DNA from: Enterobacter sp. RHBSTW-00994
GTDB lineage: Bacteria > Pseudomonadota > Gammaproteobacteria > Enterobacterales > Enterobacteriaceae
Direction: 5' to 3'
Assembly: GCF_013782625.1 (NCBI RefSeq)
Contig: NZ_CP056199.1
Location: forward strand, 2,064,588-2,128,587
Length of the DNA: 64,000 nucleotides
The translations under genes were made by a program, and so were the position numbers. The notes below the pieces were generated by a model. The model was given only the letters and a program-made list of their open reading frames with translations. It made no database searches and was not told the origin of the DNA. Shown piece by piece: positions 9,109 to 59,611 of the stretch (position 1 is its first letter; every line of letters starts with the position of its first letter).

Positions 9109-10623
9109 TTACTGTTGCGGTGCAGCCGGTTCGGCAGGTTCCGGCATTCCTAAAGCAGGCATACCAAACATCCCAACAAAGTCTTCCAGCGGCATTTTCT
9201 GTCCGTTCAGAGTGACCTGTCCATTGGCATATTGCAGGCTAGCACCCATCGTGTTGTCTTCGAGCGTGGTAATGCGGAACATCTGACCCATTGCCGCCAG
9301 GCCTTTCACCTGTTGACTGGCCAGTTTGCCGGCATCTTCTTCACCGTAACCTTCAAGTTTGGCGACCTGAGTCATAAACTCGGTGGCCATGTCCATTGGG
9401 ATCGTCAGTTTACTGTCGAGAGATTTCACGCTGCGATCCACTTCCTGCGCCAGCGTTTGTGCTTCACCCGTAGAAGTTGACGGATCTGTCAGGAACAAGG
9501 ACAAGTTGAAGCTGGTTTCGCCTTTGCTGTTTTTCCAGCTCAACGGTGCAATCGTAATGACCGGTTCACCTTTCAGCAAAATCGGCAGGTTATCAAACAG
9601 CACGGCCATCACCTGCTGCTGGTACACCTCGGGATTTTGTTTCAGGGCGGCATCTGTCAGCAGAGCCTGACTTTCTTTAGTGTATTTCTGGCTAAACTGA
9701 TGCCATGCCTGACCGTCAATGTTGCCAATTTTAAGGGACAACTTGCCCGTACCCAGATCCTGATTCTGTACTTTCAGACTTTTCAGTGTGTAGTCCAGTT
9801 GGGTATTGATGTTTTTACCGTCTTTCGAGACATCAGACTTCCCGTCCAGATCCATCCCTTCCAGTACGGCCATCTCTTTGCCTTCGACGGCGATCGCGAG
9901 TTTATCGAGGGTGATTTTTTGATCCCCGATGCGCTCATCAAAACGGGTCATGCGGCTGTTGCCGTTGGCCTTCAGGTTATTGAAAGTAAGCTGAACTTTT
10001 TGATTGTATTCATTTACTGCATTGACCAGCCCGCTTTGTGCTTCACCGGTCAGGCTGAATACATTGCCGTCACGATCGGCATCAAGCTGGAAGTTCCCCC
10101 CGCTAAAGGCGACTTTCTCTTCACCGTTTTCATAATTCAGCGCTTTCAGGGCAATATCGGAACGGGTATCACCGGCATAGCTGATACGGGTATTGATCTC
10201 AAATGGTGATGTATTTTTTGCCAGATCGAAAAGTGGCTTAGTGACGTCATTATTGACCAATACAGTGTTAACCGATGCCATCGACGGCACAAGATTAAAC
10301 GATTTCAGTTGTGCCAACGGGAAGGGACCGTGGCTAACCACTTCGTCCAGCACCACGCTTTGCCCTGATTTCAGCCACGGATTTGCGCTTCCGGCAACCG
10401 GTTTGACCACCAGTTGCATATGGCTGGTGAACACACCACGTTGATAATTCTGGTAGCCCAGTTCGATACCCGCTTCGGGCGCAGTACGTTTGAGTTCACT
10501 GTTGGCCTGCGCCACCATTTCTGCCAGACGGCCTTCCAGTTGTTTCCCGGTAAACCAGGAGGCTCCTGTCCAGACCACGCCTAATGCAACAATAACGCCT
10601 GCAGCTATAACCGTTTTTTTCAT
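9109..10623 (-). CDS. ydgA: YdgA, DUF945 family protein
   Basis: 504 residues from the ATG at 10623 (E. coli YdgA has 502), starting MKKTVIAAGVIVALGVVW, a single N-terminal membrane anchor. The remainder is a large beta-rich periplasmic region with repeated FSGG, LNG and LSW-type strands. The protein ends in a Pro/Ala-rich tail. Upstream in-frame codons to 10764 would overlap manA and its terminator, and they lack homology, so they were rejected. Family members behave as inner-membrane-associated proteins. No biochemical function is established. Confidence 0.92.
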   Translation of the reverse strand: MKKTVIAAGVIVALGVVWTGASWFTGKQLEGRLAEMVAQANSELKRTAPEAGIELGYQNYQRGVFTSHMQLVVKPVAGSANPWLKSGQSVVLDEVVSHGPFPLAQLKSFNLVPSMASVNTVLVNNDVTKPLFDLAKNTSPFEINTRISYAGDTRSDIALKALNYENGEEKVAFSGGNFQLDADRDGNVFSLTGEAQSGLVNAVNEYNQKVQLTFNNLKANGNSRMTRFDERIGDQKITLDKLAIAVEGKEMAVLEGMDLDGKSDVSKDGKNINTQLDYTLKSLKVQNQDLGTGKLSLKIGNIDGQAWHQFSQKYTKESQALLTDAALKQNPEVYQQQVMAVLFDNLPILLKGEPVITIAPLSWKNSKGETSFNLSLFLTDPSTSTGEAQTLAQEVDRSVKSLDSKLTIPMDMATEFMTQVAKLEGYGEEDAGKLASQQVKGLAAMGQMFRITTLEDNTMGASLQYANGQVTLNGQKMPLEDFVGMFGMPALGMPEPAEPAAPQQ

Positions 10624-54724: not shown

Positions 54725-56842
54725 TTAGTGTGGCATGTCTGCATCCATCACGAATATGCGGTCTGCCGATGAAATCGTTGTTTCACGGTGGGCGATAATG
54801 ACTCGGGTGATGTTCATCGCTCTTATCGATTGGTTTACCTGGCTTTCGCTTGTTTTATCCAGGTGGCTGGTGGCTTCGTCCATAAATAAAATGCCAGGCC
54901 TGCGGTATAATGCTCTGGCAATATAAAGCCGTTGCTTTTGACCGCCGGATAACCCTTCGCCCAGTTCACCAATCAGTGTTTCGTAACCCATCGGGAGTTT
55001 CATAACATCATCGTGGATATGGCTGGCGATAGCACATTCCACCACCCACCGATCGTCAATATCAGGGCGGAAACCCGCAATATTTTCTTTAATTGATCCT
55101 GAAAATAGCTTGTCTTCTTGCATGATACAGGCGATGTGCTCGGCATAATGGTCGAAACCAAGTTGTTTAATATCGATTCCATTGATTCTGACGCAACCTT
55201 CGGTGGGTTCAAATAACCCACACAGCACTTTCATTAGGGTGCTTTTACCTGCGCCAGAGACGCCCGTAATAGCAATACTTTCTCCTGCACGAATGCTCAG
55301 ATTCAGTTTTCTGAAGATGTCACCTGCGTGGTTATCATAGCGATACGCCAGATCGTGAGTCTCCAGGATTAACGCGCCCTGGGGTAAATGCAATGGGCTG
55401 GTTGCCATTGGCGGTATCGCCTTTTGCAGGGCAATATCTGCGATGCGTTCACTGTGTAAACTAATGATCTTCAACTGGATGATAAAGTTAATCAGCGCAT
55501 TTATACGGTCATAGAACTGGCTTCTGAAGGTATTAAATGCGATAAACATGCCGATGGTTAAGTGGCTATCAATCATCAGTCTGCCACTTACCCAAAGAAT
55601 GACAATTTGATCGCAGGTGGCGATAAACGACACCACACCGCCAAAGAAAAGATCCATTCTCGTCAAACGAATACCGGTATTGATCTTATCCGAAAAAAGA
55701 TTAAACCAGTTGTTGACCCTCAGCTCAGTCATGCCCTGAATTTTAATGGTTGCGATGCCGTACAGGGTTTCCATAAAGTAAGAGTTCAGGCGCGCTTCTT
55801 TAATTAACTCTTCTTCGGATAACTGACGATAATAGCGGTAGGTTGCAAATCGGATAAGGGTGTACAACGCCGTAAAAGAGACCACAATCAGGCTGAGCTG
55901 GAGATTGTATAAAAACATCATTATCAGCAGCCCTATAACCATCAGCGTATCAATGATGCTGCCCGTTAATCCTGTAGTAAAGGTCGAGCGGATAATATCG
56001 AGCGAGTGAAAGCGAGACTGAATATCACCCAGTTTTCGTCTTTCGAAGTAGGTTATCGGAAGCTTAACCAGGTGTGACAAGAGGCCAAAACTCCATTGAA
56101 CATCAATGAGTGTTCCCAGTATCAACGTGGTCCAGGATCGTATAATACTGACAGTCAATCGCAACAGGATAAGAATAAAAAGCCCAAGACAGATGATGTT
56201 CAGTAACCCATAATCCCCGGAGGCAATGACATTATCCGTGACTAATTGTGTTCCTACAGGCAATAGCAAGCTAATGAATTCAATGACCAGGGATAAGAAA
56301 AATATTTTTGCGAGAGAGGGAATCAGACCGTTAATATTTTTCAATAACGCTGATGTTCGTAATGTCTTATTCCGTTTTTGCCCTGAAAATGAGGTTCCTG
56401 GCCATAATTCAAGCACCACGCCGGTAAAATGCCGGGAGAGTTCTGGCAGGCTAATCACACGCTTTCCGAGAGCGGGATCGTGGATCACAACGCTGTTCTT
56501 ACCCACCTTAACCAGCACGACGAAATGATTAAAATCCCAATGCAAAATGCAGGGCTTCCGGACGTCGCGCAGCTCCAGAAGGTCCACTGATAAAGCGCGT
56601 GAGAACATTCCCAGTTCACCTGCAATTGCTTTTATAGACTGAAGATTAACCCCACGAGCCGATAAATTAAACTGCTGCCTGAGTTGCAATAAATCGACCT
56701 GCTTACCATAAAAGCTGCATACCATCGAAAGGCAGGCCAGACCACATTCGGAGGCTTCGGTTTGAAAGACTACGGGGACACGTTTAAATAACGTCAGATC
56801 CAGTTTGCGTATCAGTGTTTCAGGGTGATAAATATTAGTCAT
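54725..56842 (-). CDS. CvaB-type peptidase-containing ABC exporter (PCAT) of the microcin operon
   Basis: 705 residues from the ATG at 56842, which gives the CvaB-like start MTNIYH; an ATG nine bases earlier also exists. The C39 peptidase domain has Cys33 (TEASECGLACL), His106 (LHWDFNHFVVL) and Asp122 (IHDP), the complete leader-cleaving triad. Six membrane helices follow (about 165-450). The ATPase has Walker A GVSGAGKST (527-535), signature LSGGQ (631), Walker B ILFMDE (651-656) and the H-loop His685. Much of the sequence matches colicin V exporter CvaB. Its start lies within the last codons of the fusion-protein gene. Confidence 0.96.
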   Translation of the reverse strand: MTNIYHPETLIRKLDLTLFKRVPVVFQTEASECGLACLSMVCSFYGKQVDLLQLRQQFNLSARGVNLQSIKAIAGELGMFSRALSVDLLELRDVRKPCILHWDFNHFVVLVKVGKNSVVIHDPALGKRVISLPELSRHFTGVVLELWPGTSFSGQKRNKTLRTSALLKNINGLIPSLAKIFFLSLVIEFISLLLPVGTQLVTDNVIASGDYGLLNIICLGLFILILLRLTVSIIRSWTTLILGTLIDVQWSFGLLSHLVKLPITYFERRKLGDIQSRFHSLDIIRSTFTTGLTGSIIDTLMVIGLLIMMFLYNLQLSLIVVSFTALYTLIRFATYRYYRQLSEEELIKEARLNSYFMETLYGIATIKIQGMTELRVNNWFNLFSDKINTGIRLTRMDLFFGGVVSFIATCDQIVILWVSGRLMIDSHLTIGMFIAFNTFRSQFYDRINALINFIIQLKIISLHSERIADIALQKAIPPMATSPLHLPQGALILETHDLAYRYDNHAGDIFRKLNLSIRAGESIAITGVSGAGKSTLMKVLCGLFEPTEGCVRINGIDIKQLGFDHYAEHIACIMQEDKLFSGSIKENIAGFRPDIDDRWVVECAIASHIHDDVMKLPMGYETLIGELGEGLSGGQKQRLYIARALYRRPGILFMDEATSHLDKTSESQVNQSIRAMNITRVIIAHRETTISSADRIFVMDADMPH

Positions 56843-58109
56843 TGCCCACATCCATTACGCTCATTTTCATTTCATAAAATGGCGACAATAACCATTCATA
56901 GACACGTCTTTTTTCCAGGAAAAGCGTGATTTGTGCTTTCATTCCTGTGCCGAGAACAAGCGGCTTGCCATGAACCTGCACAGACTGGCGTTCAGGTTTG
57001 ATCATGATCTTGTACCAGGATTTTTTATCGTCATAAAATTCCTGCGCGATAGTTTGTTTCGACTGTAATTCTGTTTTTGGGGCAGGGAGCCTTGAAATTG
57101 CGGATATTGATGCCCTGAACTGTCCAAATTTCTCATAAGGAAACGCGTCATAACTGACATTAACCTGCTGGCCGACGGTAAGATAAGGTAATACCTCATC
57201 TGAAACCCAGGTTTCGAGATAACAGGGTGAATGCGTGCTCTGCTGAACACGGGCTAATACATCTCCTGCACTAAGCATTTTTCCCTGTGCCGTATTTACC
57301 GAGTCGATTGCGCCATCGGCTGTAGCTTTAATGACATAGTTCCCCTCGGCTTCCGTATTCAGTTTTTCTTTTTCCAGCTCGTATTTTTGTTGCTCAAGCT
57401 GATAAATCTGCTGGTCATAGTCGGAGGCTTGCGTTTGAATCTGATGATTAAGGGTGTCGACTTGTACTTGGTCCTGTGATTTTCTGGCGACCAGATCGGA
57501 AACATTGCTCTGTTGTTGATAAAGAAGGGCGCTTTGACTGCTCATCTGATCTTTAGTGACAAGCCCTTTTTTCTGATAGGCACGATAATCTGAAACGTTT
57601 TTCTCTATTTGATGTAATTCCTGCTGCGCCTGAGTAAGAAGGGTCGATGAGACCTTAAAACTGGACTGATAATGTTGTTTCTGCACAGAAAGTGAATTGA
57701 GCGTACTTTGTTTCGTCGAGTACAAATTTGTCATCATGCTACTGATACTTTTTATCTGTAGATCAATATCTCTTTTTTTATTCTCATCAACGAAACCTGA
57801 CTGGGTCGATACGCCAGAGTGGATGAGAAATAAGGTGTCGCCTTTTTTTACGTGGTCACCCTCGGTAATGTATTTCTGTACAACCGTACCCTGTGTGGAG
57901 GCATAAATATTAACGGGGCCGGGGAATGTAGTTATCTCGCCATGAACAACGACGCGTCGGGTATATGTCCCTTTAACGACGAAAGTGGTGATAGCACTGA
58001 TAAAAAGGATACAGAGCAATACGATATAGTAAAAAGGAATGCCGGGAAGAAGAATGGCTTTGCCTTCCCATTGGGTTCGTTGATATTCAATGGCTTCCTT
58101 GCGAAACAA
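56835..58109 (-). CDS. CvaA-type membrane fusion protein (HlyD family) of the microcin exporter
   Basis: 424 residues starting at TTG (58109) with perfect AGGAGG six bases upstream. The protein begins MFRKEAIEYQRTQWEGKAIL and so aligns with CvaA (MFRQDALE...). One membrane helix (about 24-45) precedes a long coiled-coil hairpin (about 110-260, rich in Gln/Leu) flanked by lipoyl halves (GTVVQKYITEGDHVKKGD and ADGAIDSVNTAQGKMLSAGD). A beta-barrel domain ends in FLEKRRVYEWLLSPFYEMK, again CvaA-like. It would link the ABC exporter to TolC. The 3' end overlaps the exporter gene by eight bases. Confidence 0.95.
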   Translation of the reverse strand: MFRKEAIEYQRTQWEGKAILLPGIPFYYIVLLCILFISAITTFVVKGTYTRRVVVHGEITTFPGPVNIYASTQGTVVQKYITEGDHVKKGDTLFLIHSGVSTQSGFVDENKKRDIDLQIKSISSMMTNLYSTKQSTLNSLSVQKQHYQSSFKVSSTLLTQAQQELHQIEKNVSDYRAYQKKGLVTKDQMSSQSALLYQQQSNVSDLVARKSQDQVQVDTLNHQIQTQASDYDQQIYQLEQQKYELEKEKLNTEAEGNYVIKATADGAIDSVNTAQGKMLSAGDVLARVQQSTHSPCYLETWVSDEVLPYLTVGQQVNVSYDAFPYEKFGQFRASISAISRLPAPKTELQSKQTIAQEFYDDKKSWYKIMIKPERQSVQVHGKPLVLGTGMKAQITLFLEKRRVYEWLLSPFYEMKMSVMDVGND

Positions 58110-58132
58110 ATTTGGCCTCCTGCTGTTGAGGA

Positions 58133-58159
58133 AATAGCCGCTGAAGATAAGCGGCTATT
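58133..58159 (-). terminator. Attenuator-like hairpin between microcin gene and exporter genes
   Basis: AATAGCCGCT and AGCGGCTATT form a perfect 10-bp stem around a seven-base loop, 33 bp after the microcin stop. On the minus strand it is followed by TTCCTC, a short T-poor tail. It would allow partial termination so that the precursor is made in excess over the exporter. Confidence 0.75.
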
Positions 58160-58191
58160 GGCTATGTGGCGCTACATTGCCATTTTATTGA

Positions 58192-58473
58192 TTAATGTTT
58201 ACCGTGGTCGGTGTTGTGACCGCCACCATTTTTTGAACCGCCATTACCTTTCGAGCTACCACCACTTTTACCGCCAGCATTGACTGAGCAACCGCCGCTA
58301 AAAGAGGTGCTTTCAGAGTGGGAGCCATCTTTATTGGTTGTGCTGGTATGAGAATAGCTACCGTTGCAACCTGCGCTGCTACCACCGAACATTCCACCAA
58401 TAGCATTGCCGATAGAACCCCACATGCCTGCACCACTTACATGACTTAATTCATTTTCATTCAGTTCACGCAT
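58192..58473 (-). CDS. Putative class II microcin precursor, Gly/Ser-rich, double-glycine-type leader
   Basis: 93 residues. AAGGA lies nine bases before the ATG, within the end of the upstream gene. The leader MRELNENELSHVSGA closely follows those of MccV (MRTLTLNELDSVSGG) and MccL (MREITLNEMNNVSGA), so cleavage after Ala15 by the neighbouring C39 exporter is expected. The mature peptide (78 residues, starting GMWGSIGNAIGGMFGG) has a small-residue helix-like N-terminal part and two cysteines (36 and 62, possible disulfide). Its tail is Gly/Lys/His-rich and ends HGKH. It lacks the Ser-rich C-terminus of siderophore microcins. Activity is inferred only. Confidence 0.87.
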   Translation of the reverse strand: MRELNENELSHVSGAGMWGSIGNAIGGMFGGSSAGCNGSYSHTSTTNKDGSHSESTSFSGGCSVNAGGKSGGSSKGNGGSKNGGGHNTDHGKH

Positions 58474-58475
58474 AA

Positions 58476-59252
58476 TTAATTTTCCTTGCAATAGTGAGCA
58501 AAAGGTATACCCATAATATCCATAGACTTTTTCCATACCATTTCACCATCCGTGTATGAAATGTTTTTTACGCCAAATTGCGTAAAATCCTTCTCGCTGT
58601 ACGTCGACAGGCCTGTGTCAGGATCACCAATATTTTCTTTTTGCCCGCAAAGCGGCATCATCCATGACACATGTATATTGTTGTAGAATGCTTTATCAGT
58701 TTTTCTTATTTCGGCAAAGATCTTATCTGTTGTCGCAGGGTCAGATGTTCTTTCTCCATCGACTGTCGTGATCAATTTGCTGTCATCCGAATTGGGTGAG
58801 CCATGAAAACCAATAATAGAACCGTAATTGATTACTTTATTTTTTGCGGCAGGGAAGAGGTAGTTAGCACAGGAAGAGAGACAAAGTCGCCTCACTTCGA
58901 TACTGATGCCTTTATCGTGAATAATACGCCCGATATTAATGGCAGTTTCAATATCACCACCGCCACTGTTAATGGATATTGTCTGAACAGGGATCAGGTT
59001 TTTTTCTATGATTGATGCAATGATTTTGTCATCATTTTTAGAAATATTTCCATCCACATACAAAGTATCAAAGATGAGATGAGTGGACATTTTTTCGCTC
59101 AGCCCTTGCTTCACAATAAGCTGATTCGAGAGTTGATATAAAATATCTCTACTGGCTTTTTTGAAGTGATACGTGTTGTATGAATAAATAGCGACAGCGC
59201 AGAGTATCGCTATAAAAACGGCTCCCAGGATGTATCCCTTTTTTATCTTCAC
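58476..59252 (-). CDS. Membrane-anchored ClpP/crotonase-fold protein in the microcin operon (immunity or processing candidate)
   Basis: 258 residues starting at GTG (59252), with GGAG ten bases upstream. One N-terminal membrane helix (about 7-25) is followed by a soluble, probably periplasmic domain of the COG3904 type. It contains SINSGGGDIETAINIGRII (94-112), the nucleophile region CLSSCANYLF (124-133, Ser126/127), and IGFHGSP with His150. This resembles ClpP/SppA serine peptidases. It ends two bases before the microcin ATG. In the colicin V operon the gene directly upstream of the toxin encodes immunity, so this may be an unusual immunity protein, or a processing or quality-control protease. 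The role is inference. Confidence 0.8.
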   Translation of the reverse strand: MKIKKGYILGAVFIAILCAVAIYSYNTYHFKKASRDILYQLSNQLIVKQGLSEKMSTHLIFDTLYVDGNISKNDDKIIASIIEKNLIPVQTISINSGGGDIETAINIGRIIHDKGISIEVRRLCLSSCANYLFPAAKNKVINYGSIIGFHGSPNSDDSKLITTVDGERTSDPATTDKIFAEIRKTDKAFYNNIHVSWMMPLCGQKENIGDPDTGLSTYSEKDFTQFGVKNISYTDGEMVWKKSMDIMGIPFAHYCKEN

Positions 59253-59611
59253 GAAAAAGCAGCTCCATGTGTAAAGTCATGTAAATTTATCAATATAAAA
59301 AAGAAGATAAATGCGGTATTTGTATCTAAATGTAAATATAACTCAATTTAATTTTGATGATTTATTGAACAAACCCAGGAGGAATGGGCTTGTCACGGCA
59401 ATGTATGCACAAAATGAGTAAGGTTTTTCTGGAAGTACCTACCAATAAGAGGGGTAATCGATAGAACGCTTATTATTTCTCTTCTTGGTTTTATCTGGAT
59501 ATATTGCTCGATATTTACGCTGGGTCGCCAATGAAATAAATCTGGCATCCGTGACCTGATATGCCAGAGAGGGTAATCTATTGCTGTTTCGCTACATTCA
59601 GGTAAATCGCA
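59253..59611. promoter_or_regulatory. Promoter region of the microcin operon
   Basis: 359 bp, strongly AT-rich, between the microcin operon and the divergent oxidoreductase. On the minus strand TTGAGT (59346-59341) and TACAAA (59324-59319) are spaced 16 bp and could be the operon promoter, about 65 bp before the GTG. No clear Fur, LexA or CRP box was found. The AT-richness suggests H-NS binding. Confidence 0.45.

Follow-up and report, generated by a model that had tools for sequence, protein, structure and literature searches.

A predicted mobile class II microcin-type operon of Enterobacter with a candidate immunity protein of ClpP fold

The window analysed here is a stretch of 64,000 nucleotides from Enterobacter sp. 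RHBSTW-00994 (contig NZ_CP056199.1), whose minus strand is filled between positions 54725 and 59252 by four open reading frames. In the order of transcription, these encode a ClpP-fold protein of 258 amino acids with an N-terminal membrane helix (58476-59252), a microcin-type precursor of 93 amino acids (58192-58473), an HlyD/CvaA-type membrane fusion protein, or adaptor, of 424 amino acids (56835-58109) and a peptidase-containing ABC transporter of the CvaB type of 705 amino acids (54725-56842). The initial annotation had described a complete class II microcin-type operon of four packed minus-strand genes, and all four reading frames were confirmed. The precursor gene starts 2 nt past the stop codon of the ClpP-fold gene, a gap for which translational coupling of the two is probable, and 82 nt separate the precursor from the adaptor. 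Besides the precursor and the export genes, the operon holds only one gene, that of the ClpP-fold protein. Judged from its sequence, the locus is a mobile operon of the class II microcin type (IIa-like), with a predicted antibacterial-type peptide product. Searching the known defence systems of PADLOC yielded no match for the precursor, the ClpP-fold protein or the adaptor; the exporter matches two PADLOC models within its ATPase part. No structured RNA was found between 50000 and 64000 with Rfam at the gathering score.

The precursor begins with a leader of 15 residues ending in Gly-Ala (58429-58473, minus strand), which places it in the double-glycine (GG or GA) type of class II microcins and resembles the leader of microcin V, as first proposed. 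The cut is predicted after Gly14-Ala15, at the same position as the Gly-Gly of a Pantoea homologue described below. Curated leader models of Pfam and NCBIfam score the precursor below their cut-offs; the microcin V family PF17508 gives 17.1 bits for a cut-off of 27 and covers residues 1-41 only, and no named microcin model of Pfam or NCBIfam is matched above cut-off. The mature part of 78 residues, starting with GMWGSIGN, is Gly/Ser-rich and carries a His/Lys tail. For comparison with the C-terminal Gly/Ser feature as described in PMC13101503, the last ten residues of the precursor contain three Gly and no Ser. Its two cysteines, Cys36 and Cys62 (spacing 26), would likely form one disulfide, with which the computed average mass of the mature peptide is 7362.6. 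The initial claim that the precursor looked new thus held with respect to the named models and is limited by homologues that databases already list as hypothetical proteins; an earlier listing in the supplements of microcin surveys may also exist. A Gly/Ser-rich mature part with such a tail and no named relative above cut-off could suit a secreted signal, adhesin or matrix peptide that is exported by a bacteriocin-type system and is not antibacterial. We consider this very improbable, as the leader type, the gene set, the plasmid mobility and the retention of a lone ClpP-fold gene would all fit a toxin-immunity logic.

The antibacterial peptide that we favour would depend on the two export genes, whose CvaA/CvaB type was rightly recognised at the outset: adaptor and exporter score above curated Pfam cut-offs, with 50.1 bits against 22.2 for PF13437 in the adaptor. 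The exporter has the C39-peptidase domain characteristic of class II microcin exporters, its Cys33/His106/Asp122 triad is in place, as had been stated, and its best relatives of solved structure are the bacteriocin transporters 8VP3 and 4RY2. In the genome of origin, P0004 is matched full-length by this one exporter alone, the other hits beginning no earlier than residue 181. The same genome holds TolC-family proteins, the best with 463.9 bits for a cut-off of 225.15. The 15-residue leader would be recognised and cut off by the C39 domain of the exporter, and the 78-residue product would leave the cell through the HlyD-type adaptor and the chromosomal TolC.

The same four-gene order is carried by two Pantoea dispersa plasmids, one of them with a stop inside the adaptor gene. 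Identity to the window proteins is 29% for the ClpP-fold protein over the whole alignment (36% in the best stretch), 35% for the adaptor and 49% for the exporter. The Pantoea precursor has 84 amino acids, with a 15-residue leader ending in Gly-Gly and a Gly/Ser/Lys/Asn-rich tail. Its cysteines, at positions 21 and 47, have a spacing of 26 identical to that of the window precursor, and the stretch SFxxGCxxN around the second one, read from the alignment, is common to both. Overall identity between the two precursors is low (36%) and their homology therefore rests jointly on the leader, the cysteine spacing, the SFxxGCxxN stretch and the gene order. The Gly/Ser-rich precursor family, with its likely disulfide, is thus composed of an Enterobacter-Klebsiella branch and a Pantoea branch.

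Relatives of the precursor were found in 3 of 60 genomes in a first search, own genome included, and, among 72,556 plasmid records, in 5 that all come from Klebsiella; a megablast search of 20,395 E. coli records with the 4.7-kb stretch gave no match. With a threshold of E 0.01, a profile search over 392 genomes of the family retrieved 30. Beyond the own genome and Enterobacter G019, these matches are weak (E 9.5e-6 or weaker), most covering the first 30 to 63 residues and one covering residues 25-89. These weak leader-type matches, at L063-L080 and other places in about 28 further genomes of the family, are plausibly other double-glycine precursors. A phage-borne origin was ruled out, the precursor having no match in 50,697 phage records.

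With blastn, positions 54739-59401 of the window align over their full length to two other Enterobacter genomes, G019 and G012 (about 79% identity); the flanks are not common. G012 is taken as Enterobacter vonholyi E13, also the single precursor locus found among genome contigs. Similarly, positions 54753-59337 align at about 82% to the three Klebsiella plasmid stretches compared (L005, L030 and L031). Outside the limits of the cassette, only one upstream patch of 50 to 66 nt is left by blastn, in Klebsiella. In all four stretches compared from Enterobacter relatives (18 kb each; L125-L128), the sequence of the right flank between about 59606 and about 62776 is present without the operon; in G012 the flanking gene and the operon lie on separate contigs, and in G019 the flanking gene is unmatched. 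Because the flanks differ and the right one occurs without the operon in relatives, the operon is a mobile element, some 4.7 kb long (a block of 4.66 kb). The horizontal transfer suggested initially is supported by this sharing of the cassette by several genomes and plasmids in different contexts. No convincing repeats mark the cassette ends. The Klebsiella carriers are conjugative or mobilizable plasmids, including two from blood isolates (one copy being truncated) and one from an insect. In K. variicola plasmids, the annotation shows TIR-domain proteins within a few kb on the downstream side of the operon (L005 14928-16771 and L032 13149-13757), possibly an adjoining defence locus.

We calculated dN/dS for each gene relative to G019, E. 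vonholyi and K. variicola. The ClpP-fold gene gave 0.10-0.11, the precursor 0.044-0.054, the adaptor 0.062-0.096 and the exporter 0.061-0.084; these values come from simple Nei-Gojobori counts with dS of 0.7-2.0 and are hence rough, the Pantoea comparisons being saturated. All four genes are under purifying selection. A chance reading frame or a decayed remnant in the window was ruled out, the four genes being open and under such selection.

Upstream of the operon, a perfect CpxR-type motif GTAAA-N5-GTAAA lies at 59271-59285 (plus strand), 19 to 33 nt before the first start codon; the motif is the one given for CpxR in PMC9600279. It is matched once in the window for 0.08 expected, and at least one match occurred in 7 of 100 shuffles. 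In the genome of origin the pattern occurs 23 times, versus 13 for a reversed control pattern; therefore the motif alone is weak evidence. The box is perfect in all seven upstream regions scanned of the Enterobacter-Klebsiella branch, with a second perfect site in two of them, and the surrounding stretch is conserved as a whole, not the box alone. One-mismatch sites are located further upstream in Pantoea and in genomes G378 and G312, and none in G146, these counts having no chance control. The Cpx envelope-stress system may thus have a part in controlling expression of the operon. Microcin PDI is reported to be under another envelope system, EnvZ/OmpR (PMC5311971). The promoter scan gave 3 sites, compared with 4.8 in shuffles, and terminator-like sites numbered 5, compared with 1.3; two of the latter overlap each other where the ClpP-fold gene begins, on the same strand as the operon.

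The fold of the 258-residue protein was assigned to the ClpP/crotonase type from a predicted model and structure comparison. The initial description of a ClpP-fold membrane protein was borne out in both respects, its single hydrophobic helix being N-terminal. Ser126 and His150 occupy the positions expected of the ClpP serine and histidine; they are invariant in the 17 rows of an alignment of homologues (A2) and at least 90% conserved across the 42 rows of a larger one (A3). In the 17-row alignment, no conserved acidic residue could be read at the place of the ClpP catalytic aspartate and catalysis is therefore uncertain. The window protein has no match in Pfam, CLP_protease PF00574 included, and this family is matched by 5 of 42 homologues at E 0.0015 or weaker. 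Protease folds include members without catalytic activity. They offer a precedent for a microcin system in which the ClpP-fold protein protects non-catalytically, by binding or shielding the peptide, and the third catalytic residue that cannot be assigned in the alignment points the same way. We judge this unlikely, given that the serine and the histidine are conserved even in distant homologues sharing 18 to 31% identity with the window protein.

For the catalytic protection that we prefer, the first question is whether this gene serves immunity at all. It is the sole immunity candidate, because the operon contains no other gene outside the precursor and the export functions. We specifically analyzed its retention at 13 close loci (the window, L022, L029, L005, L032, L030, L031, L006, L007, L173, L023, L024 and L025). 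The ClpP-fold gene is intact in all 13, and all four genes are intact in 7. The adaptor is broken by a frame break in L031 and by an in-frame stop in L007. In four loci (L006, L023, L024 and L025), the precursor and the exporter are broken or gone and the ClpP-fold gene is kept. For instance, in K. pneumoniae plasmid p298-2 (L006 8780-10083), the precursor is cut short to 46 residues, with an IS3 family transposase adjoining it; there, the ClpP-fold gene has stayed whole and no exporter occurs within the 16.8-kb stretch. In L024 and L025 (G378 and G312), the DNA resembles the Pantoea operon only as far as the first 26 nt of the precursor gene. In L023 (G146), the ClpP-fold gene is followed, about two dozen nt past its stop, by an exporter fragment of 36 residues with a stop. 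Several of the 13 loci are near copies of one another and do not count as independent, with identities of about 98-99% among the Klebsiella copies, about 95% between L022 and L029 and about 99% between L024 and L025; the weapon losses therefore represent three separate events at most. The orphan ClpP-fold genes show omega values of 0.145-0.21, mostly over old divergence; for the orphan pair L024 and L025 the value is 0.51 (six changes), and p298-2 compared with two further copies from Klebsiella has 0.13 (three changes) and 0.18 (five changes). An immunity gene is expected to outlive the precursor and the exporter, and a processing enzyme is not. In the light of these sequences, immunity is the best reading for the ClpP-fold gene of the operon, a role that we infer from its position and retention.

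We also considered that the ClpP-fold protein could act within the export system as a protease for maturation or quality control, immunity lying elsewhere or not being needed, a reading which the wider family bears upon. In an order-wide profile search, 41 of 394 genomes matched the ClpP-fold profile at E 1e-8 or better; weaker matches were partly in longer frames, possibly of other ClpP-fold proteins. An exporter was nearby in 2 of the 32 loci taken from this search (flank up to about 6 kb) and in 9 of 56 loci scanned, five of which (L113-L117) are only about 3.5 kb long. In the genus of G036, 1 of 11 genomes had a match. In genus g21, 25 of 148 genomes matched at E 1e-30 and an exporter was present in 3 of 20 further loci taken. 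Since most of the distant homologues examined have no exporter nearby, the wider ClpP-fold family is not microcin-specific, and many of its members carry lipoprotein-type signals; the gene may encode a more general periplasmic protease. In G141, two different ClpP-fold relatives lie side by side (L026 8653-9219, minus strand, and 9955-10500, plus strand), with no exporter in the stretch.

Genus g21 is probably Vibrio: its radical SAM gene has relatives on plasmids of Vibrio alginolyticus and Photobacterium damselae, and many of its genomes consist of two contigs. Five clusters were delineated there: L157 1057-6813, L161 5-6672, L162 265-6540, L096 337-6781 and L088 1616-6941 (coordinates of the reverse strand for the latter). 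Their order is a Gly-rich precursor, a small variable protein, a radical SAM protein (Pfam), an HlyD-type adaptor, a C39 exporter and, last, a ClpP-fold lipoprotein, preceded in 4 of the 5 by a hexapeptide-repeat transferase. The precursor leader reads MYNL..EI.MV.GG; L088 has no visible precursor and only a short radical SAM piece. By its gene content the cluster resembles a microcin-type system with enzymatic modification of the peptide. Other small genes, of which some read as membrane proteins, adjoin these precursors and the ClpP-fold gene comes last, so that a role as cognate immunity gene is not obvious for it there. Related radical SAM, adaptor and C39-exporter genes were found on Photobacterium damselae plasmid pdp3 (L174) and on a Vibrio alginolyticus plasmid (L175), preceded by an annotated toxin-activating lysine-acyltransferase, a SelO-family protein and a glycosyltransferase. 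No ClpP-fold gene was found in L174 and L175 using 42 homologues as tblastn queries at E 0.01, and the gene is therefore dispensable in the Vibrio-type cluster. The position of the ClpP-fold gene behind adaptor and exporter in the five g21 loci, with the precursor and another immunity candidate upstream in four, would agree with a maturation or quality-control role. For the operon of the window we nevertheless hold such a role to be quite unlikely, given that the ClpP-fold gene outlives precursor and exporter in the four close loci and that removal of the leader would already fall to the C39 domain.

Taken as a whole, we lean, with some reserve, towards a mobile microcin operon whose released peptide would inhibit related enterobacteria, with possible Cpx-linked expression. 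The immunity protein would be an inner-membrane-anchored, periplasm-facing serine hydrolase of ClpP fold, most likely inactivating the peptide by cleavage on its entry into the periplasm; this periplasmic proteolytic immunity is inferred. A broader proposition is a new microcin family, disulfide-looped, Gly/Ser-rich and in two branches, with a membrane-tethered periplasmic ClpP-fold protease as immunity protein and a wider family including orphan resistance genes against incoming peptides. We put it forward tentatively and regard it as rather doubtful; if true, these ClpP-fold proteins would represent an unrecognised class of proteolytic immunity. In either case, the operon provides a precursor family unnamed by the scanned curated models, with two comparable branches, and a concrete candidate for microcin immunity based on a protease. 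Of all the parts of such systems, immunity genes are the most difficult to predict. With a fold that can be recognised and that persists in lone genes, searches would therefore become feasible both for immunity and for the peptides against which it was kept.

Previous surveys were also consulted. The verified immunity proteins of PMC9746304 have 51 to 216 amino acids, versus 258 here; they are described there as sharing no obvious similarity, and the pipeline ceiling was 250 amino acids. The survey reports 6,496 putative hits, 425 of them unique and novel. Nine Enterobacter and sixteen Klebsiella microcin candidates are given in PMC11494933, and the Klebsiella microcins named in PMC10269471 are E492, S-like and B17. 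Pantoea candidates were screened in PMC13174018, whose main text contains no words beginning with dispersa, Clp or protease. No ClpP-fold microcin immunity protein appeared among the matches listed in open-licence PMC text.

Among characterised systems, microcin V (cvi-cvaC, cvaA-cvaB) likewise combines a double-glycine leader, an HlyD-type adaptor and a C39 exporter, and has cvaC downstream of cvi as the window has its precursor downstream of the immunity candidate. Cys33/His106/Asp122 of the window exporter are one residue off Cys32/His105/Asp121 of CvaB (PMC9746304). Unlike microcin V, the operon has an unmatched mature part, an immunity candidate of 258 amino acids with a ClpP fold and all four genes in the same direction. 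A V. cholerae microcin is reportedly subject to proteolytic immunity, as the title of Kim et al. 2024 has it, and would resemble the reading proposed here in having a protease for immunity. The CAAX-type protease fold differs from the ClpP fold. Microcin S also has four genes (mcsS, mcsI, mcsA, mcsB) and its McsI belongs to the CAAX amino-terminal protease family (PMC3316575); the window candidate and McsI thus have different protease folds. In contrast to ClpP/SppA-like serine proteases, the window protein is one chain with an N-terminal membrane helix, has no Pfam match and has its third catalytic residue unplaced. Compared at the sequence level with these systems, the export logic and the leader are known, and what sets the operon apart is a precursor family to which none of the scanned models gives a name, together with a candidate immunity protein of a fold not met in this role in the literature searched.
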